32,965 nucleotides of DNA. Origin: Clostridia bacterium (GTDB lineage Bacteria > Bacillota > Clostridia > Christensenellales > Aristaeellaceae). Location: assembly GCA_024404245.1 (NCBI GenBank), contig JAKSQH010000001.1, positions 99,556 to 132,520 on the forward strand, in the 5' to 3' direction. A program made the translations under genes and the position numbers. Of this stretch, positions 6,436 through 16,534 are shown in pieces. The notes under the pieces were generated by a model, which was not told the origin of the DNA, did not search any database, and saw only the letters and a list, made by a program, of their open reading frames with translations. Every line of letters begins with the position of its first letter. Within the stretch, counting starts at the first letter, position 1.

Positions 6436-8400
6436 GTGGCACTTACATTCGGTATCTTCGCGCATGTGGATGCCGGAAAGACAACCCTTTCCGAGCAGTT
6501 GCTGTACCGCGCCGGCGTTCTTCGCGGCGGTCCCGGCCGCGTGGATCACGGTAACACGCTGCTCGACTCCGACGCGCTGGAAAAAGACCGCGGCATCACA
6601 ATCTACTCCGGTCAGGCCGGATTTACGTACAACGGGGCATCCTTCACGCTGATCGATACACCCGGGCATGTGGATTTCGCCGCTGACGCGGAGCGAAGCA
6701 TGATGCCGCTGGATCTGGCGATTCTGCTGGCGGACGGTTCCGGGGATATTCGCGCGCATACGGCCGCGCTGTACCGGATGCTGGATGACGCCCGTATTCC
6801 GGTTATCATTTTCGTAAACAAATGTGACCTTGTATCCTTTGACCGCGAGCGTACGGAAAGCGGCATCCGCCGCAGGCTCACAGACCGCGCGGTATCCGTA
6901 AACGGTCAAACAGCGGACCCCGAAGCTTTATCCATGCTGGATGACGCTTTCTGTGAACAGTATCTTTCCGGAACCGCCGATTCCGGCAGCGCGCTGGACA
7001 CGCTTGCCGCGCTTACCCTTGAGCGGCGGGCCGTGCCGGTGTTTTCCGGGGCCGCGCTGAACGGCACCGGAGTGGATGATCTGCTGTGTTTTCTGCACAG
7101 GGTCGCGGTCCGCTGGTCCTTCCCGGCGGATCTGTCCGCGGATGTACTCGCGCGGGTGTACCGGATAAAGCACGATGACAGCGGAAACCGGGTAACCTAT
7201 CTCAGGATACTGCAGGGCACACTGCGTCCCCGCGCGCAGTTCCGTTTCGGTGAGGTCGCGGAAAAAGTCAACCGGATTCTTCTGCCGAAAGGCGTCTCCT
7301 ATGAGCCGGCCGAAACTGCTTTCCCGGGTGATGCCGTTGCCGTAACCGGTCTGACTGTACCCCGTTGCGGGGATCTGATCAGCCCGGACGGCATCACGGA
7401 TACTTTCCGGGCAAAGGTCACGCCCGTGCTCCTCGCGCGCGTAACACCGGTGAACGGCGTCACTCCGCAGGTTCTGCTTGAAAAGTTACGTATTCTGGAG
7501 GATGAGGAGCCCGCGCTCGGCATCGTATGGGACGCAGCGCACAGCGCGGTAAACGTACGGATCATGGGTACCGTACAGTCCGCCGTTCTTACCGAGGTGC
7601 TGAAGCGCCGCTTCGGGATAGAGGCTCGGCTTGAAAAGCCCGAGGTGCTGTATGAGGAAACCGTCCGTTCGGAAGTAACGGGCTGCGGGCACTATGAACC
7701 GCTGCGGCACTATGCCGAGGCTCACCTGCGTCTTGAACCCGGCCCTCGCGGTTCCGGCATCACATTTGCTTCCGAATGCAGTCCGGATGATCTGACCGTG
7801 AACTACCAGTCCCTGATCCGGACGCATGTTTTCGAGAAAACACACCGCGGCGTACTGACCGGCGCGCCGCTCACAGATGTCCGTGTTACCCTGCTGTCCG
7901 GACGCGCGCATCTGAAGCATACTGAGGGCGGCGATTTTCGCGAGGCGGTATACCGTGCCGTCCGTCAGGCACTGATGAAAGCCGGATGTACACTGCTGGA
8001 GCCGTATTACCGGTTTGAAATCACCGTTCCGTCAGCGTCGTTCGGACGCGTGATGACAGACCTGACCGGGCGGAACGCTGAATGCGATTCGCCCGTAATG
8101 GATGAGGACACGGTGACATTGACCGGGCGCGCGCCCGTTGCCGCGCTGATGGACTACCCGACGTTGCTGCGTTCCTCCACCCACGGCAGCGGCGATATTC
8201 GCCTGTCCCCGGACGGCTACGATTTGTGTCACAACGCGGATGAGGTTATTGAAAAAGCGGGATACGATCCGATGGCGGACACGGAGAACCCTCCCGGCAG
8301 CGTTTTCTGTTCACACGGGGCGGGATACTATGTCGCGTGGTACAAGGCGGATGAATTCATGCATTTGCCGGTGGAGCCTGCCGGCAAAACGCGGGGTTGA
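6436..8400 (+). CDS. Tet(M)/EF-G-like translation factor GTPase
   Basis: This 654-residue translational GTPase belongs to the ribosomal protection protein lineage that acts at the ribosomal A site. G motifs are AHVDAGKTT (9-17), RGIT (52-55), DTPGH (74-78), NKCD (128-131) and FSGAALNGTGVDDLL (203-217), the last resembling Tet(M) YHGSAKNNIGIDNL. A domain II barrel follows, then a domain IV-like region from about 418 (GHYEPLRHYAEAHL). The C-terminal tail, HGAGYYVAWYKADEFMHL, differs from the Tet(M) ending. Tet-type enzymes are about 640 residues, so length fits. I do not call it a tetracycline-resistance gene: domain IV and the tail differ strongly, and nothing mobile surrounds it. The start is GTG with AAGGAGG 8 nt upstream, and several upstream codons are not in frame with any ATG. 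Confidence 0.85.
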   Translation: MALTFGIFAHVDAGKTTLSEQLLYRAGVLRGGPGRVDHGNTLLDSDALEKDRGITIYSGQAGFTYNGASFTLIDTPGHVDFAADAERSMMPLDLAILLADGSGDIRAHTAALYRMLDDARIPVIIFVNKCDLVSFDRERTESGIRRRLTDRAVSVNGQTADPEALSMLDDAFCEQYLSGTADSGSALDTLAALTLERRAVPVFSGAALNGTGVDDLLCFLHRVAVRWSFPADLSADVLARVYRIKHDDSGNRVTYLRILQGTLRPRAQFRFGEVAEKVNRILLPKGVSYEPAETAFPGDAVAVTGLTVPRCGDLISPDGITDTFRAKVTPVLLARVTPVNGVTPQVLLEKLRILEDEEPALGIVWDAAHSAVNVRIMGTVQSAVLTEVLKRRFGIEARLEKPEVLYEETVRSEVTGCGHYEPLRHYAEAHLRLEPGPRGSGITFASECSPDDLTVNYQSLIRTHVFEKTHRGVLTGAPLTDVRVTLLSGRAHLKHTEGGDFREAVYRAVRQALMKAGCTLLEPYYRFEITVPSASFGRVMTDLTGRNAECDSPVMDEDTVTLTGRAPVAALMDYPTLLRSSTHGSGDIRLSPDGYDLCHNADEVIEKAGYDPMADTENPPGSVFCSHGAGYYVAWYKADEFMHLPVEPAGKTRG

Positions 8401-9254: not shown

Positions 9255-9290
9255 CGCGTGCCGGAATAGTCTTCCGGCACGCGTTTTCTT
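9255..9290 (+). terminator. Terminator of the XRE/S24 gene
   Basis: A perfect 12-bp G+C-rich stem (9255-9266 with 9272-9283), 5-nt loop and TTTTCTT follow. The T-tract runs into the last codon of the convergent ABC gene. It could also weakly stop minus-strand transcription. Confidence 0.8.
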
Positions 9291-12261
9291 ATTCTGTTCT
9301 GAGGGCGACCACAGGGTCTTTCTTCGCCGCGCTTCGGCTCGGGATAATGCCCGCGATCAGCGTCAGCAGCATACTGATCACAACCAGAATCGCGGCCGTC
9401 AGCGGGTCAAGATACGCCGACAGGTTGGAAATACCTGTAAGGCTGTGCAGGATCGCGTTGATCGGGATGCACAGGAGCCATGTGATACATACACCCAGCA
9501 AACCGGAAGCGAAACCGATCAGCACCGTTTCCGCGTTGAACATGGCTGAAACGTTCTTCTTGCTCGCGCCGAGTGAACGCAGGATACCGATTTCCTTCGT
9601 CCGTTCCTGCACGGAGATCAGCGTAATCACGCCGATCATGATGGAGGATACAATCAGCGATATCGCGACAAACGCGATCAGCACATAGCTGATGGCATTG
9701 ATAATCGTCGTCACGGAACTCAGCAGCAGGCTGATATAATCCACATAGGTAATCTCCGACATCGGATCCACGGTCTTGTTGTACAGGGCAATCTGTTCAC
9801 TGATTCTGTCCTTGTCCTCAAAGGACGAGGCATACAGATTAATGGACGAGGGAGCGTCCGGATCCAGATAGCCCAGTTTATTCAGGTTGCTCTCATAATC
9901 CGCGTCCGAGAACTGCAGCACGGTAGCATAGCATTCGGCGCAGTAAGCCTCCGTGAAATCCGGCAGTTCCTTATCAAACGCGGCCGCGAGTTCCTCATCC
10001 GTTGATCCTTCAAGCATGCGGGCAGCTTCTGCCGCGGCTTCCGCGCGGAATTGCTCAAGCATCGCGTCACGCAGCAGCCCGGCAACCGTCGCGTCATCCA
10101 TGTTTTTCAGATACGCGGACACAATAGCTTCCGACATTCCCATCTGCTCCACCGCCGCCGGCAGCATAATACTTTCCATCTGTGCCCGGTCCATCGCGGC
10201 AAGCGCAGCATCGGTCTTTTCGGCAACCGCCGCCTCATCCGGTACGGATTTCAGTTTACGGTACGCCTCCGCTTTCGCCGCGTCATCCATCGCGCCCGCG
10301 TACCGGCGGAAGGTCTCGGCCTTGTCGGCATCCGTCAGAGCGGATGAATTGCGGAAAGGCAGACCTTCAATCACGTCAAACGCCGGTTGTTCCGTCTGCG
10401 CTTTGACGGCCGGGGAATTGTTGTTTTTGTCCATTACATATTCAGTCAGCAGCGATGTATAAGCCACGCCGTCCTTCAGCATCGTGGAGGCAGAGTCCCC
10501 GTTTGGCTTCAGAATACCGGCGATGTGCAGCTGCAGACCGTTGTCATACAGATACCGCATACCGGTCGCGCTGCCGCGCAGATCCCTGTATGTTCCGGTT
10601 GCGGGATCCGCCTCAAAGCAGTCAGCCTCGAGAATGACGCGGAAATCCAGCCCGCAGATTTCCTCATAGGTCCAGTGATGGGGCGTAAAGTCCACCTGCT
10701 GTTTGCTGGCCGCGGCGTTCATCAGGTCAACCATATCCTCTTTGGACATCAGCCCCAGCGCGTACAGTGACAAATCGCCGATCTCGCCCTTCTCGTCCAC
10801 AATCAGCATCACTTCATCGAATTTTTCGGGCCAGTGACCGTAAGCCAGCTCATATTCCTGCCGGAACAGCGGGCTGATGATCTGCCCGTCATCCCCGGGC
10901 AGCATTTCCTGCCACAGACGGCTGTAGGATTCCATCATACCGTAGCTGCTGCTCATCACGGAGCCTGTCGCCATGCTCGTAAGCATGGACGTATCCATGT
11001 GCCAGAAATTCGCGATCAGCTCCGTCATCAGCTCATTCAGATCGGAACGGATGATTTCATCATCAACTGTTTTTGTGTACACAGACAGACCGCGGCTGTA
11101 GGTATACTGCACCGCGCTTACCGCGGAATGCAGTTCACTGTTTTCATCGGCCCGTTCCTTTTCCAGAAACGCCTTGAAGGATTTCAGGTCATTCTTCTTC
11201 TCCTCCATGGAGTTCATGGCGTTTGTCAGCTCAAAGATCACGCCCTTCTGATAAATGCCGTCATCGTCATGATCGGAAAGTGACTTCGCCTTACCCATGA
11301 AAGTGGAGATGAATGAGGATGTATCAAGGCTTCTGCCTTCCAGCGTCAGCGGGTAGGAAGACAGCGTTTCCTCCTGCACGCGGTCAATATACCCGGTCAT
11401 GCCGTTGGAAACGGCGTAAATCAGCGCGATACCGATAATACCGATTGATCCGGCAAAGCTGGTCAGAATCGTGCGGCCCTTCTTGGTGAACAGGTTCTTC
11501 AGGCTCAGGCCGAACCCGGTCCGCAGGGACATGGACGCCCTTTTTCCGCTTTTCGTTTTCACTTCCGCGGCGACGGGCGCGGTCTCCGCGCGTCCGCTGT
11601 CACTGGTAATCTTACCGTCCAGCATGCGCACAATGCGTGTGGAATACTTTTCCGCCAGTTCCGGGTTATGGGTTACCATGATCACCAGCCGGTCTTTTGA
11701 GATATCCTTCAGGATATCCATCACCTGCACGCTCGTTTCGGTATCCAGCGCGCCGGTCGGCTCATCGGCCAGAATAATATCCGGATCGTTCACGATGGCG
11801 CGCGCGATCGCGACGCGCTGCATCTGTCCGCCGCTCATTTCCGCCGGACGCTTCCGCAGCTGATTTTCCAGCCCGACGCGTTTCAGCGCTTCCGTCGCGC
11901 GTTTCCGTCTTTCAATTTTACCGACACCGCTCAGGCTGAGCGCCAGTTCCACGTTCTGCAGTACCGTCTGGTGCGGAATCAGATTGTAGCTCTGAAAAAC
12001 AAAGCCGATGGAATGATTCCGGTAGCTGTCCCAGTCCCTGTCCTTATACTCAGCCGTGCTGCGCCCGTTGATCAGCAGTTCGCCGCCGGTATACCGGTCC
12101 AGGCCGCCGATGATGTTCAGCAGCGTCGTTTTGCCGCAGCCGGAAGGGCCGAGAACCGACACGAACTCGCTTTCGCCGAACGTCAGCGAAATTCCCCGCA
12201 GCGCCTCCACAGGTTCGCCGGCTCCGTCATATGTTTTGGTGATATTTCTCAGTTCAAGCAT
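9289..12261 (-). CDS. MacB-like ABC transporter, ATPase fused to FtsX-type permease
   Basis: This 990-residue single-chain ABC protein has an N-terminal ATPase with Walker A GPSGCGKTT (38-46), signature MSGGQMQR, Walker B IILADEPTGALD and the H-loop VTHN, all intact and of the LolD/MacB type. A permease follows with one TM at about 265-290. A very large extracellular region comes next (about 295-855) with helical, Asp/Ala-rich repeats such as YRKLKSVPDEAAVAEKTD. Three C-terminal TMs form the FtsX module. The ending ISMLLTLIAGIIPSRSAAKKDPVVALRTE region contains the PSRSAAKKDPVVALR box typical of the class. Such proteins act in mechanotransmission, extruding peptides or lipoproteins, or in antimicrobial-peptide resistance. 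No dedicated sensor kinase is nearby. GGAGG lies 7 nt before the ATG. The substrate is unknown. Confidence 0.9.
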   Translation of the reverse strand: MLELRNITKTYDGAGEPVEALRGISLTFGESEFVSVLGPSGCGKTTLLNIIGGLDRYTGGELLINGRSTAEYKDRDWDSYRNHSIGFVFQSYNLIPHQTVLQNVELALSLSGVGKIERRKRATEALKRVGLENQLRKRPAEMSGGQMQRVAIARAIVNDPDIILADEPTGALDTETSVQVMDILKDISKDRLVIMVTHNPELAEKYSTRIVRMLDGKITSDSGRAETAPVAAEVKTKSGKRASMSLRTGFGLSLKNLFTKKGRTILTSFAGSIGIIGIALIYAVSNGMTGYIDRVQEETLSSYPLTLEGRSLDTSSFISTFMGKAKSLSDHDDDGIYQKGVIFELTNAMNSMEEKKNDLKSFKAFLEKERADENSELHSAVSAVQYTYSRGLSVYTKTVDDEIIRSDLNELMTELIANFWHMDTSMLTSMATGSVMSSSYGMMESYSRLWQEMLPGDDGQIISPLFRQEYELAYGHWPEKFDEVMLIVDEKGEIGDLSLYALGLMSKEDMVDLMNAAASKQQVDFTPHHWTYEEICGLDFRVILEADCFEADPATGTYRDLRGSATGMRYLYDNGLQLHIAGILKPNGDSASTMLKDGVAYTSLLTEYVMDKNNNSPAVKAQTEQPAFDVIEGLPFRNSSALTDADKAETFRRYAGAMDDAAKAEAYRKLKSVPDEAAVAEKTDAALAAMDRAQMESIMLPAAVEQMGMSEAIVSAYLKNMDDATVAGLLRDAMLEQFRAEAAAEAARMLEGSTDEELAAAFDKELPDFTEAYCAECYATVLQFSDADYESNLNKLGYLDPDAPSSINLYASSFEDKDRISEQIALYNKTVDPMSEITYVDYISLLLSSVTTIINAISYVLIAFVAISLIVSSIMIGVITLISVQERTKEIGILRSLGASKKNVSAMFNAETVLIGFASGLLGVCITWLLCIPINAILHSLTGISNLSAYLDPLTAAILVVISMLLTLIAGIIPSRSAAKKDPVVALRTE

Positions 12262-12562: not shown

Positions 12563-14380
12563 TTACGCGTTCAGCAGGGAGCCGGTCGCTTCGTCCTCAT
12601 ACTGACGCGTATACAGGCGGTAATAATACCCTTTCGCGTTCAGCAGGTCCTTATGCGTGCCCTGTTCCACAATTTTTCCGTCATTCACCACCAGAATCAG
12701 GTCCGCGTTCTTCACGGTGCTCAGGCGATGAGCGATCACAAGGCTTGTGCGACCCTTTATGATAGTATCAATCGCGTTCTGAATCTTCTGTTCGGTCAGG
12801 GTATCCACACTGGCGGTCGCTTCATCCAGCACCAGAATGCGCGGATCCGCGAGAATGGCCCGGGCAAAGCTCAGCAGCTGCTTTTCGCCCGTGGAGAGCA
12901 TGTCACCGCCCTCGCCGACATCGGAATCGATGCCCTTGTCCATTCGCTCAACTACTTCCTTCGTGGATACCAGTTCCAGCGCGCGGTCAATCTCCTCCTG
13001 AGAGGCGCCCGGATTGCCGTAAAGCAGGTTTTCCCTTACCGTACCGCTGAACAGATGCGGTGTCTGCAGCACATAACCGATGGCGCTGTGGAGCCACAGC
13101 TGACTGCGTTCGCGCGCGTCACGGCCGTCAATCAGCACACGGCCCTCCGTGGGTTCAAAGAACCGGCATACAAGGTTCACCAGCGTACTCTTGCCGGCAC
13201 CTGTTTCGCCCACAATGGCAATATTGCTGCCGAAGGGAATCTTCAGGTTAAAATGCTCCAGCACATACTCGTCCCCGTCCGGGTAACGGAAGCTGACATC
13301 CTCGAACTCGATATCGCCGCTGATCGGTTCCCAGTTTTCCTTTTTCGGATCGAAGCTGTCACCGTACTTTTCAATCACCTCCGGCGTGTCCGTCACGTCG
13401 CTCTTTGTTCCGAGCAGGCGGGTCAGGCGTTCAATGTTTACCTGCGTGGTAATAACATCACTGATGGCGTCTATAATCCAGCGAACCGGTTCCATCATAC
13501 CCTGAGCGTAGCTCATGAACATGCTGAAGGTTCCGACTTCGCTCTCGGCGATATAGCCTCCGCGCCACAGTACGATCGCCAGCGCAGCACTGGATGCCAG
13601 GTTCATAGTGGCGGAAAACAGACCGCGCAACCGTGCGGCGCGGATACTCTTCTGCCGTATTTCATGTGTATCCTTCATGAAATCCCCGGCCATTTTCTTT
13701 TCAATTACCAGCGTCTTAATTGTCTTCGCGCCGGTAATGCCCTCGTTGAAATCACCGGTAATTCTGCTGTTCAGCTCACGAATCTGGCGGTTCGCGCGAA
13801 TCAGGCCCTTCTGGAATACGCTGAACAGAATCACAATCAGCGGCAGAATGGTAATTACCAGCAGTGCCAGTTTCGCGTTCACCAGCAGCATCACGACAAC
13901 GGACCCGGCCAGATAGCTCAGGTGCCATACGCTGTCCATCAGTGTCCAGGACACCAGACCGCCGATGCGTGAAGTATCGCTCATCACACGGGAGTGAATA
14001 TAGCCGACACTGTTCTGGTTGAAATAGCTGAAGCTCAGCGTCTGCAGATGATTGAACGCCGCGTTCCGGAGATCGCGGTTCACGCTCACCTCAACGGTCA
14101 TCGCGCCGGAGCAGCTGATATAGTTGCATATCGCGCCGAAGATCACGATCGCCGCGTAAATCGCGATATATACAGGCAGCGTATCCAGCGTGTGATCTCC
14201 GATAAAGTGGTTCAGGGCATAGCGTTGCAGCAGCGGCATCGCGATATCCACACCCGTTCCGGCCAGACCGCAGATCACCATCACGGTCAGCATTTTGCGG
14301 TACTTCTTCATAAAGGGGATCAGTCTCGGGATCCCGAAAAACGGCAGGGAAACCTGCTTTTCTTCTTTTTTCTCTTCCAT
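12563..14380 (-). CDS. ABC exporter half-transporter with canonical Walker B and degenerate signature
   Basis: This 605-residue half-transporter of the multidrug/lipid exporter type has six TMs (about 30-310) and a C-terminal ATPase. Walker A is GETGAGKST and the catalytic Glu520 lies in ILVLDEATASVD. The signature, however, reads LSTGEKQ (about 494-500) rather than LSGGQ. That pattern marks the protomer which carries the catalytic Glu but donates the imperfect signature in a heterodimer such as BmrCD or TM287/288. Its ATG overlaps the stop of the upstream half-transporter by one base (TAATG), with GGAGG and GGTGGAGG upstream, which argues for coupled translation and 1:1 assembly. It would export hydrophobic drugs, lipids or peptides. 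The substrate is unknown. Confidence 0.9.
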   Translation of the reverse strand: MEEKKEEKQVSLPFFGIPRLIPFMKKYRKMLTVMVICGLAGTGVDIAMPLLQRYALNHFIGDHTLDTLPVYIAIYAAIVIFGAICNYISCSGAMTVEVSVNRDLRNAAFNHLQTLSFSYFNQNSVGYIHSRVMSDTSRIGGLVSWTLMDSVWHLSYLAGSVVVMLLVNAKLALLVITILPLIVILFSVFQKGLIRANRQIRELNSRITGDFNEGITGAKTIKTLVIEKKMAGDFMKDTHEIRQKSIRAARLRGLFSATMNLASSAALAIVLWRGGYIAESEVGTFSMFMSYAQGMMEPVRWIIDAISDVITTQVNIERLTRLLGTKSDVTDTPEVIEKYGDSFDPKKENWEPISGDIEFEDVSFRYPDGDEYVLEHFNLKIPFGSNIAIVGETGAGKSTLVNLVCRFFEPTEGRVLIDGRDARERSQLWLHSAIGYVLQTPHLFSGTVRENLLYGNPGASQEEIDRALELVSTKEVVERMDKGIDSDVGEGGDMLSTGEKQLLSFARAILADPRILVLDEATASVDTLTEQKIQNAIDTIIKGRTSLVIAHRLSTVKNADLILVVNDGKIVEQGTHKDLLNAKGYYYRLYTRQYEDEATGSLLNA

Positions 14381-16218
14381 TACGCCTCCACCTCCTCCGC
14401 GGAAAGGCTCTGAATATCATAAATCTGCCGGTACAGACCGGGCTGTTGTTTCAGTTCATCCGGCGTACCCATCTGGCTGATCCGTCCGTGATCCAGCACG
14501 AGAACCTGATCGGCCTTGCTCAATGTTGTGATACGGTGTGAAATCAGAATAATCGTCGCGGAACCGAAGCGTTTTTCAAGCGCGGTACGGATCTTCGCGT
14601 CCGTTTCCGTATCCACGGCACTCAGTGAATCATCAAAAATCATGATCGGTGTTTTCTGTGTCAGCATCCGGGCAATCGCCGCGCGCTGCTTCTGTCCGCC
14701 GGACAGCGTTACACCGCGTTCGCCGACGAACGTCTCATAGCCCTTTGTGAATCCCGCGATTGTTTCATCCAGACATGCCGCGCGTGCCGCGTCGTCCAGA
14801 TCATCCTGCGTCAGCCCGGCGGATGTAATACCGAGGTTTTCGCGCAGCGTACGGCTGAACAGGAACGGTTCCTGCAGCACAATGCCGATATTGCTTCTCA
14901 GGTGTGCCAGGCGGATTTTCGCGATGTCACGTCCGCCGATGGTGATCCGGCCGTTTTCGGGTCCAAGGGGATACAGCCGGTCCAGCAGATACATCAGCGT
15001 ACTCTTGCCGCTGCCCGTGCCGCCCAGAATGCCGAGTGTCGTGCCCGCGGGGATCGTCAGGTTGATATCGTGCAGCAGTTCCTGCGCGCCGTCATAGCCG
15101 AAGTTCACATGCTCGAAGCGGATATCGCCGGTCATGTCGGCGTCTTCCGCGTCAGGCGCGTCCTTTTCCTCTTCAGCGTCCATAATATAGCCCACGCGGT
15201 CAATCGCCACGCCGGCTTTACTCATTTCACTGATCATTCTGCCCAGCATACGCACAGGCCATATAAGCATGCCGTTGTAGCTGAGGAAAGCGATATACTC
15301 GCCGCTGGTCAGCCTGCCGTTCAGCACGAACACCGCGCCGAAAACCACAATCAGCATGATCTGAAGGCCGGAAAGCACATCACTGGTACTCCAGAAGCGC
15401 GCCATGATCTTCGCCATTCTCTTCCACAGGCCGGTATAGTAGTCATTATGCTTCTCGAACCGGTCACGTTCGTAACGTTCACGGCCGAAAGCGCGCACTA
15501 CGCGTACACCGGTCAGGTTTTCCTGTGCCATGGCGCTGAGCTTACCCTCATTCTCGTCACACTTTTCAAACGCGTCACCGATCGTATGATGGAACCGGTA
15601 GCTGTAAAGCATAATCACAGGCAGCGGGATGATCGCGATCAGCGTCAGCAGCGGATCCATACCCACCATAAAAATAACGCTCAGAATCAGCAGGATGGAA
15701 ATCCGTATCAGATTTGTCATCTGTTCGGACACGAAATTCCGCGCCGTATCAATATCGCTTGTACAACGCTGGATGATATCCCCGGTATGATTCTGCATAT
15801 GCCACCGGAAAGGCAGATGCTCAATGTGATCATACAGAGTATCGCGCATATTCTTGACCATGGTCTCACTGCCGCGTGTATTGCTTACACGGAAACCGTA
15901 CTGGCAGATCACCTTCGCGAAAGAGACAATCATGATTCCCACAGCCATGATCCACAGGTTCCGGCGCAGGTTTTCAGTTCCGCCGAACAGGTCAATGATA
16001 TTCCTGACCAAAGCGCTCAGCGAGTCCGTCGGTTGCCCGCCCAGCACATTGTCCACCGCCACACGGATGATCTGCGGGTTTATCATATCCGCGAGGGCGC
16101 TGATCGCGGCACAGATCATGCACAGTGTGAACATGAACTTGCTGCCTTTCAGGAAGCTCCAGATGAGCTTCGCCCTGCCGGGCCGTTTTTCTTTCTTTTC
16201 TTCAGTCTGTTTTTCCAT
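14380..16218 (-). CDS. ABC exporter half-transporter with Asp in place of catalytic Glu
   Basis: This 612-residue partner half-transporter has an N-terminal membrane domain (about 20-320) and an ATPase with Walker A GGTGSGKST and a canonical signature LSGGQKQRAAIARM. Walker B reads IMIFDDSLSAVD, so Asp530 replaces the catalytic Glu. With its neighbour this predicts one working site (this signature plus the partner Walker motifs) and one degenerate site (these Walker motifs plus the partner LSTGE). The start at 16218 is chosen because AAGGAG lies 5 nt upstream. An ATG eight codons earlier lacks a ribosome binding site of its own. It is the first exporter gene after the leader ORF and terminator at 16243-16369. 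Confidence 0.9.
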   Translation of the reverse strand: MEKQTEEKKEKRPGRAKLIWSFLKGSKFMFTLCMICAAISALADMINPQIIRVAVDNVLGGQPTDSLSALVRNIIDLFGGTENLRRNLWIMAVGIMIVSFAKVICQYGFRVSNTRGSETMVKNMRDTLYDHIEHLPFRWHMQNHTGDIIQRCTSDIDTARNFVSEQMTNLIRISILLILSVIFMVGMDPLLTLIAIIPLPVIMLYSYRFHHTIGDAFEKCDENEGKLSAMAQENLTGVRVVRAFGRERYERDRFEKHNDYYTGLWKRMAKIMARFWSTSDVLSGLQIMLIVVFGAVFVLNGRLTSGEYIAFLSYNGMLIWPVRMLGRMISEMSKAGVAIDRVGYIMDAEEEKDAPDAEDADMTGDIRFEHVNFGYDGAQELLHDINLTIPAGTTLGILGGTGSGKSTLMYLLDRLYPLGPENGRITIGGRDIAKIRLAHLRSNIGIVLQEPFLFSRTLRENLGITSAGLTQDDLDDAARAACLDETIAGFTKGYETFVGERGVTLSGGQKQRAAIARMLTQKTPIMIFDDSLSAVDTETDAKIRTALEKRFGSATIILISHRITTLSKADQVLVLDHGRISQMGTPDELKQQPGLYRQIYDIQSLSAEEVEA

Positions 16219-16242: not shown

Positions 16243-16273
16243 AAAAAAAGCTTGCCTGCGGACACAGGCAAGC
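16243..16273 (-). terminator. Leader terminator (putative attenuator) before the ABC exporter pair
   Basis: A perfect 9-bp stem (16250-16258 with 16265-16273) with 6-nt loop is followed on the minus strand by seven Ts. It lies 27 nt after the leader ORF stop and 24 nt before the first exporter ATG. A complete terminator between a gene's promoter and its start codon implies conditional readthrough. Confidence 0.8.
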
Positions 16274-16300
16274 GATTACATCATACGCCGACAACCGTAC

Positions 16301-16369
16301 TTACGGCAGAAAGGCATACCCGTATACCGCGTTACCCGCGTTCTCCATTTTTCCCGAACGGCTGCGCAT
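16301..16369 (-). CDS. Putative 22-aa leader peptide upstream of the ABC exporter
   Basis: The ORF starts MRSRSGKMENAG and ends YGYAFLP before TAA. AAAGGAGGAGG lies about 5 nt before its ATG, the best Shine-Dalgarno in the region, although the peptide has no recognisable domain. A short, very well translated ORF directly before an intrinsic terminator and a drug-type exporter matches ribosome-controlled attenuation leaders such as bmrB upstream of bmrCD. I do not recognise a known stalling motif. By eye I find only a weak alternative pairing (about 5-6 bp between the last codons and the terminator arms). The frame is open further upstream to 16501 with other ATGs, but those precede or overlap the likely promoter. 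Confidence 0.55.
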   Translation of the reverse strand: MRSRSGKMENAGNAVYGYAFLP

Positions 16370-16411
16370 ATGCCCTCCTCCTTTCATTCGGTTTCGTTCC
16401 GGTACCCGGAT

Positions 16412-16440
16412 AAGGTAACATATATCTTTCTGTATTTCAA
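16412..16440 (-). promoter_or_regulatory. Probable promoter of leader ORF and ABC exporter operon
   Basis: The -35 TTGAAA (16435-16440), 17-nt spacer and a weak -10 TACCTT (16412-16417) preceded by an extended TGn are read on the minus strand. The transcript would begin near 16405, about 36 nt before the leader ATG. Confidence 0.45.
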
Positions 16441-16534
16441 CTGTTTTTTGGAAAAACCGCGAATGTTCGGAAAAACGCAGGGTGTTTCGCCCCATATTCA
16501 TTGTTCATAAACCGCGGATTCGGTCCCGTCCGTC

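Follow-up and report, generated by a model that had tools for sequence, protein, structure and literature searches.

The exporter locus and its neighbors

The window, i.e., the whole stretch of 32,965 nt analyzed here, lies on contig JAKSQH010000001.1 of a Clostridia bacterium (GCA_024404245.1), an assembly of 1.98 Mb that is 65% complete; many of the related public contigs derive from ruminant rumen and gut metagenomes. On its minus strand we find two adjacent genes encoding ABC exporter halves of 612 (half 1, positions 14380..16218) and 605 amino acids (half 2, 12563..14380), with the start codon of half 2 overlapping the stop codon of half 1 (TAATG). Half 1 possesses a degenerate Walker B motif (IMIFDD) and the signature LSGGQ, half 2 a catalytic Walker B motif (ILVLDE) and a degenerate signature (LSTGE). 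In BmrCD-type heterodimers (the BmrCD and TM287/288 kind), two neighboring half-transporters characteristically combine a degenerate with a consensus ATP site, and the two protein sequences show this pattern. This asymmetry, together with the similarity to solved bacterial heterodimers, bears out the heterodimeric exporter proposed in an earlier note on this DNA. Among the best 60 of 165 matches, half 1 resembled 5mkk_B (294.6 bits), YheI (283.6-286.2) and TM_0288 (260.4-261.9); among the best 60 of 163, half 2 resembled TM_0288 (314.9-318.5 bits), YheH (305.4-305.6) and 5mkk_A (277.7). We take YheI and YheH to be BmrC and BmrD. Because eukaryotic ABCB full transporters outscored the bacterial heterodimers within these best 60 of 165 and 163 matches, respectively, no subfamily name was assigned. 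Export of drugs by the pair is putative.

Next after the exporter pair follows a gene for a MacB-like ABC ATPase/permease of 990 amino acids (9289-12261, minus strand) with a promoter-like TTGACA, at which no leader ORF with terminator was seen by eye. The exporter pair flanks this gene on one side, and on the opposite side lies a gene for a GTPase with EF-G domains (6436-8400, plus strand) resembling tetracycline ribosomal protection proteins, with a score of 369 bits against NF012153, under the cut-off of 775. A counterpart of the region upstream of the exporter was found at JAUNQH010000058.1 (L032), whose exporter is 94% identical. At both loci the exporter is located behind a livF-type gene; an acyltransferase gene lies between the two in the window and is absent in L032.

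Anatomy of the leader

The region ahead of half 1 has the parts of an attenuator, all on the minus strand. Direct reading revealed a promoter-like pair TTGAAA-17-TACCTT with a TGn extension (16412..16440) and hexamers at 16440-16435 and 16417-16412, a weak match with 8 of 12 consensus bases that was missed by a promoter scan with a threshold of 9/12. It is followed by a Shine-Dalgarno (SD) sequence, AAAGGAGGAGG (16373..16383), identical in L032, and by a 22-codon ORF (16301..16369) encoding MRSRSGKMENAGNAVYGYAFLP, with RSR at codons 2-4. Read upstream, its frame stays open as far as an ATG at 16501, but the resulting 66-codon version is disfavored since the strong SD immediately precedes the ATG at 16369. 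In L032, the ORF encodes MRSRSGKMTHTGNAVYGYAFLP and the promoter hexamers are TTGAAA and TACTTT, positioned as in the window. An ORF with a strong SD ahead of the terminator occurred in 3/100 dinucleotide-shuffled versions of the upstream DNA for the window and in 8/100 for L032.

The ORF stop codon is separated by 27 nt from an intrinsic terminator (16243..16273), detected by a terminator scan. Its stem (16273-16250) comprises ten pairs, six of them G-C, with a 4-nt loop followed by seven Ts, and it is kept in L032 with one of the ten pairs changed yet kept (U-A to U-G). Over 1001 bases the scan yielded four terminator-like sites against 1.1 expected; two were versions of the leader hairpin, which has the most pairs among the four. 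The ATG of the exporter (16218-16216), preceded by the SD AGGAG, lies 24 nt from the T-run, so that a second promoter cannot fit in between and a transcript initiated upstream must cross the terminator. No Rfam family matched at gathering score in the window, and just two weak sub-threshold matches were obtained. The promoter-like pair, the ORF with its SD, the hairpin with seven Ts and the spacing to the exporter had all been listed in the earlier note, and all were recovered, the hairpin now counted as ten pairs. The presence and order of these parts and their retention in one relative are directly supported, as is the point that no second promoter fits before the exporter.

Predicted alternative folds

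In silico, three competing structures are predicted for the leader RNA. Folded up to the T-run, its minimum free energy (MFE) structure in the window (-60.1 kcal/mol; -54.3 in L032) combines the terminator with a hairpin (16305..16381) in which the SD and start region (16381-16365) is predicted to pair with 16322-16305, from the last base of the Tyr16 codon to the second base of the Pro22 codon. This predicted anti-antiterminator (AAT) sequesters the SD of the leader ORF itself. When the transcript is truncated in the terminator loop, the MFE structure (-50.5 kcal/mol; -47.5 in L032) is instead a predicted antiterminator of 31 pairs (16262..16341), in which 16341-16303, mainly codons 10-22, pairs with 16298-16262 and captures the 5′ arm of the terminator. 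The earlier note had found only weak antiterminator pairing; this does not hold for a 31-pair MFE structure that is the same in L032, although up to about one in ten synonymous controls match it.

L032, folded separately, gave the same two structures as the window. The 16 pairs of the AAT core are all unchanged, whereas additional pairs in its base and interior are partly broken. In the antiterminator, 28 of 31 pairs are unchanged, two are changed but kept and one end pair is broken. A comparison of homologous leaders for conserved peptide ends and covarying stems had been suggested in the earlier note. At the peptide end, codons 12-22 differ by one synonymous change; covariation is nearly absent because the leader is carried by two genomes only, which are 87% identical.

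Controls for the folds varied with the measure. The gain in pairing at the 5′ arm of the terminator was matched by 54/500 synonymous versions and 102/500 dinucleotide shuffles of the window (42/500 and 32/500 for L032), the energy of the truncated transcript by 56/500 synonymous versions and 11/300 shuffles (69/500 and 104/300 for L032).

Modeled dependence on ribosome position

We then blocked the bases covered by a ribosome codon by codon and subtracted the energy of the best terminator-free fold from that of the best terminator-containing fold. For the ribosome-free window the gap was -8.1 kcal/mol; it came to -2.2 to -4.6 with the ribosome on codons 1-5, -7.3 on codon 6, -12.4 to -14.6 on codons 7-18, -12.1 to -7.6 on codons 19-22 and -4.4 on the stop codon. 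L032 behaved in the same way (-6.8 without a ribosome; -0.5 to -3.4 on codons 1-5, -6.0 on codon 6, -12.0 to -15.0 on codons 7-18, -14.0 to -8.4 on codons 19-22 and -6.5 on the stop codon). Ensemble energies, computed in 12 settings (three footprints, two 5′ ends, two genomes), placed the most antiterminator-friendly codon between 2 and 5 in 12/12; with the ribosome on the stop codon they ranged from -4.8 to -11.0. The terminator was favored at equilibrium in nearly all modeled ribosome states, and with a ribosome on codon 3 and the full T-run it was the MFE structure in the window and not in L032.

The codon-3 value was matched in 7/150 synonymous versions and 0/150 codon-order permutations in each genome. 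For the contrast between codons 3 and 12 the synonymous counts were 8/150 (window) and 3/150 (L032), with 0/150 permutations each, and for the gain of codon 3 over the ribosome-free state 27% and 22% of 150 synonymous versions matched, compared with 0 and 3% of permutations. The support that these controls lend to the antiterminator and its ribosome dependence is moderate at best, and window and L032 are non-independent.

In growing transcripts with a ribosome modeled on codon 3, the antiterminator began to grow about 10-14 nt beyond the stop codon in the window and 18 nt beyond it in L032, lengthening stepwise; the MFE structure of the window changed to the terminator at +54, while L032 retained the antiterminator through the whole T-run. 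In the ribosome-free case, the SD hairpin was best up to +34 and gave way to the antiterminator between +38 and +46; from +50 the best fold was the SD hairpin plus terminator. Since the antiterminator is thus briefly the MFE structure even without a ribosome, the model requires kinetic persistence of the SD hairpin. Likewise, an antiterminator once formed would also have to resist the terminator, and RNA polymerase pausing could influence the outcome.

Because modeled antitermination is best with ribosomes at codons 1-5 and worst at codons 7-18, an early stall, at MRSR, is preferred over one in the C-terminal YGYAFLP. The ribosome-controlled attenuation put forward in the earlier note agrees well with the anatomy, with its stall site moved to codons 1-5 (MRSRS) and a stronger antiterminator; its suggestion that stalling at YGYAFLP allows readthrough is disfavored by the modeled ribosomes at codons 7-22, which oppose the antiterminator, the stop codon being less clear-cut. 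We nevertheless weighed a version of the same attenuator in which stalling takes place close to the C-terminus (at YGYAFLP or Pro-stop) and the terminator is held open directly or via coupling to RNA polymerase. The near-invariance of codons 12-22 would agree with it, as would the stop-codon ribosome, which in the window is about as favorable as one on codon 5, and tlrB, whose ribosomes are described as stalling at the peptide C-terminus in the part of the source available (PMC6851288). We consider it unlikely, given that the antiterminator is disfavored by 12-15 kcal/mol at codons 7-18 and by about 8-14 at codons 19-22, that 27 nt lie between ORF stop and terminator stem, and that the conserved codons pair in the antiterminator and, from Tyr16, also in the AAT, so that RNA structure can explain their conservation.

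The leader peptide

Between window and L032, codons 1-8 of the leader ORF show two synonymous changes, leaving the amino acids MRSRSGKM unchanged, codons 9-11 three amino acid changes and codons 12-22 the single synonymous one. Exporter half 1, compared over 613 codons, has 413 identical ones, 166 with a synonymous and 34 with a non-synonymous difference. With 3/22 non-synonymous codons in the leader against 34/613 in half 1, conservation of the peptide as such is unsupported; the quiet 3′ half of the ORF fits the RNA pairing.

The only R/K-x-R/K in the peptide is R-S-R at codons 2-4, where its chance occurrence is about 1%; it was noticed post hoc, once the modeling had called for an early stall. 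R/K-x-R/K is described as a macrolide or ketolide arrest motif in the available parts of two sources (PMC8298421, PMC6851288), and short MRLR peptides are reported in the first of these to cause arrest (PMC8298421). The tlrB-type arrangement, R/K-x-R/K at the peptide C-terminus, is not found here.

These data also bear on the idea of a leader that responds to ribosome loading as such, under initiation stress, starvation or cold, rather than to a drug-specific stall on the peptide, with a ribosome at the start codon opening the AAT and causing antitermination. The modeled value for the window is identical for P-site codons 1, 2 and 3, and vmlR, in the portion of its description available, tolerates changes in its tripeptide and responds to drugs that stall initiation (PMC9226507). 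Against this, the preservation of MRSRSGKM with two synonymous changes only weakly favors a role of the peptide, and we regard general sensing as rather unlikely.

A ribosome-mediated attenuator as the preferred reading

We therefore favor, at a probability of roughly 0.6, that the leader is a vmlR/bmrB-like ribosome-mediated transcription attenuator of the BmrCD-type heterodimeric exporter, in which an antibiotic jamming ribosomes at the start of the tiny ORF would probably switch the pump on. As modeled, transcription would start near 16405. If no ribosome is loaded, the AAT would form first and occupy the 5′ strand of the antiterminator, leaving the terminator to form and the exporter off. 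During free translation of the ORF, the ribosome would cross codons 7-22 and disrupt the antiterminator, again leading to termination. A drug-bound ribosome stalled at about codons 1-5 would cover the SD and leave codons 10-22 free. The stall would occur at initiation, or on MRSR when Ser3 occupies the P site and Arg4 the A site. The antiterminator could then zip up as the RNA emerges and capture the 5′ arm of the terminator, and RNA polymerase would reach the exporter genes. Candidate inducers would be macrolides and ketolides via R-S-R, or lincosamides and pleuromutilins via initiation, and we infer that the inducing drugs may be among those exported.

Distribution of the leader

Near-complete leader DNA was found in 2 of 45 genomes of the genus; in a third, G226, the match is limited to 23 nt. 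The second carrier, G218, is identical to L032 across the 430 nt compared around the leader. The peptide-end pattern occurred in 2/308 genomes of the family, and the pattern from SD to stop in 1/396 genomes of the order, namely the window's own, in a sample that excluded G218. We also considered a mobile or widespread leader; this was rejected, with 0 matches in 72,556 plasmid and 50,697 phage records and the single match among the 396 order genomes. None of the upstream regions compared clustered with the window leader except L032.

Within the genus, 39 exporter loci were examined. In 31, gapA lies just upstream, identified from its C-terminal sequence (plus its start in two loci) without a family search, and in two the window-type leader. 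At these gapA-linked loci, e.g., L003 and L102, a terminator precedes the exporter match by 16-185 nt. Homology of the gapA-linked terminators to that of the window was rejected, as no resemblance was seen at the 31 same-genus exporters.

Leaders at orthologous exporter loci

To place the leader among its counterparts, we scanned 85 distinct exporter upstream regions, after removal of those with an exporter match starting after residue 30, those with <200 nt upstream and duplicates by the last 180 nt. A terminator was not detected in 34 of them; the script misses long ones, and L012, L017, L018, L021, L022, L026, L053 (structured RNA, see below) and L066 were scored as having none. L005 was scored as non-gapA despite a gapA gene 302 nt upstream. 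At the 30 gapA-linked loci with a terminator, the terminator is never preceded by an ORF of 6-45 codons with a strong SD. Among the 21 non-gapA loci with a terminator, such an ORF is present in ten, window and L032 included, and absent in 11, compared with 54/2100 (2.6%) dinucleotide shuffles of the same 21 loci. The ten are non-independent (groups of two and four belong together), and binomial values are rough.

Terminators without such an ORF at homologous loci had been named in the earlier note as evidence against ribosome control, and they exist (30 gapA-linked and 11 others of the 85). We judge them non-decisive because the gapA-linked hairpin is unlike the window terminator and most likely ends gapA. 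The same loci, the rarity of the leader (2/308 and 2/45 genomes) and the modest support of the antiterminator by controls would suit a chance or decaying arrangement, in which the terminator merely lowers basal expression, the ORF is untranslated and exporter expression results from constant readthrough. We find this quite improbable: SD, ORF, terminator and folds are all kept in L032, and the frequency of 10/21 stands against 54/2100 in the shuffles.

The ten ORFs belong to six types: the window type (2), MYNKxFAxG.../MSVMNF... (4), MIISILWEGHSR, and MLLKGFVLQI, MLMKVRSTIEDFN and MRQNEQRMSAAVRP at a single locus each. The MYNK... ORF, found in a sister genus, differs in length by entire codons (25 to 27), consistent with a translated ORF. 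Its SD is likewise predicted to be paired inside the ORF, and the SD-pairing hairpin and the terminator are present in 4/4 loci examined; as a fold capturing the terminator arm was obtained in 1/4 only (L010), we rejected this leader as the same switch. MLLKGFVLQI, an unrelated 10-residue ORF with a strong SD and a terminator, lies upstream of an exporter of the window's own genus (L106). At L066 and L067, which carry MIISILWEGHSR, the SD and start region folds onto the 5′ arm of the terminator in the truncated transcript; in this model, initiation at the upstream ORF (uORF) might by itself keep the antiterminator from forming, which would invert the logic.

Eleven loci (L012, L017, L018, L019, L021, L022, L023, L026, L053, L099, L100) possess a structured RNA without a conserved ORF, which is preceded by a sigma-70-like promoter and followed by the exporter. 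In most copies it reads CATCGGAGGG ... GGATAAGATGTCAGG ... CCTGATGCTTGTCCGGC-Tn, and it has a terminator at its end. It had no Rfam match at gathering score at the loci other than L099 and L100, and none near the threshold in L053. In an alignment of eight sequences, two-sided changes affect 4 of 16 predicted pairs, but 6 of the 16 are disrupted in one sequence or more and the covariation term is small (-0.33). It may be a new riboswitch-like element.

From these six ORF types and the structured RNA we tentatively propose that one exporter lineage, in this family of rumen and gut Clostridia and in its relatives, could have repeatedly acquired unrelated ribosome-sensing leaders as interchangeable drug sensors, the window leader being one with an early R-x-R stall and an antiterminator within the ORF codons.

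Comparison with known attenuators

The comparisons below follow the parts of the cited sources that were available. The nearest counterpart is vmlR of Bacillus subtilis, where the uORF lies inside an AAT and a stalled ribosome prevents the AAT and frees the antiterminator (PMC9226507). Shared with the window leader are the intrinsic terminator and, as predicted here, the uORF-containing AAT, the antiterminator and readthrough upon a stall at or near initiation. The two differ in that vmlR encodes an ABC-F factor and has a uORF of three codons (MIN), compared with 22 codons and a transporter pair in the window, and in that the SD of the vmlR uORF is single-stranded before the AAT, whereas that of the window is predicted to lie inside it. 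As another difference, a further hairpin is described as covering the vmlR SD (all vmlR details PMC9226507).

In architecture, the leader resembles bmrB-bmrCD of B. subtilis, which is described as having a small ORF, three alternative stem-loops, a terminator and a two-gene ABC exporter; bmrB controls BmrCD through ribosome-mediated attenuation that requires translation of the ORF, but the terminator is located inside bmrB, compared with 27 nt beyond the ORF in the window (PMC4191407). A short R-x-R leader ORF with a terminator between leader and gene is shared with tlrB (yxjB) of B. subtilis, where a 9-residue peptide carries the motif C-terminally rather than at codons 2-4 and for which the available account identifies no overlapping antiterminator, in contrast to the one predicted here (PMC6851288). 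By description only, the leader can be likened to the transcriptional attenuators before the heterodimeric ABC exporter genes patAB of Streptococcus pneumoniae (PMC4319486) and before the macrolide efflux operon mef/mel (PMC4335068). Among the matches listed in the open-licence literature on leader peptides, ABC transporters and attenuation, neither the window leader nor any leader of this kind from the lineage was found to be described. By its anatomy it joins the ribosome-mediated attenuators, with the antiterminator function and the drug response being predicted.

If this reading is true, the range of drug-sensing attenuators would widen beyond the Bacillus and Streptococcus models to include a gut lineage represented here mostly by metagenome assemblies. 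The leader yields a concrete prediction, an early stall at MRSR, with a C-terminal stall not expected. Furthermore, the unrelated leaders before one exporter lineage could reveal how evolution swaps ribosome sensors.
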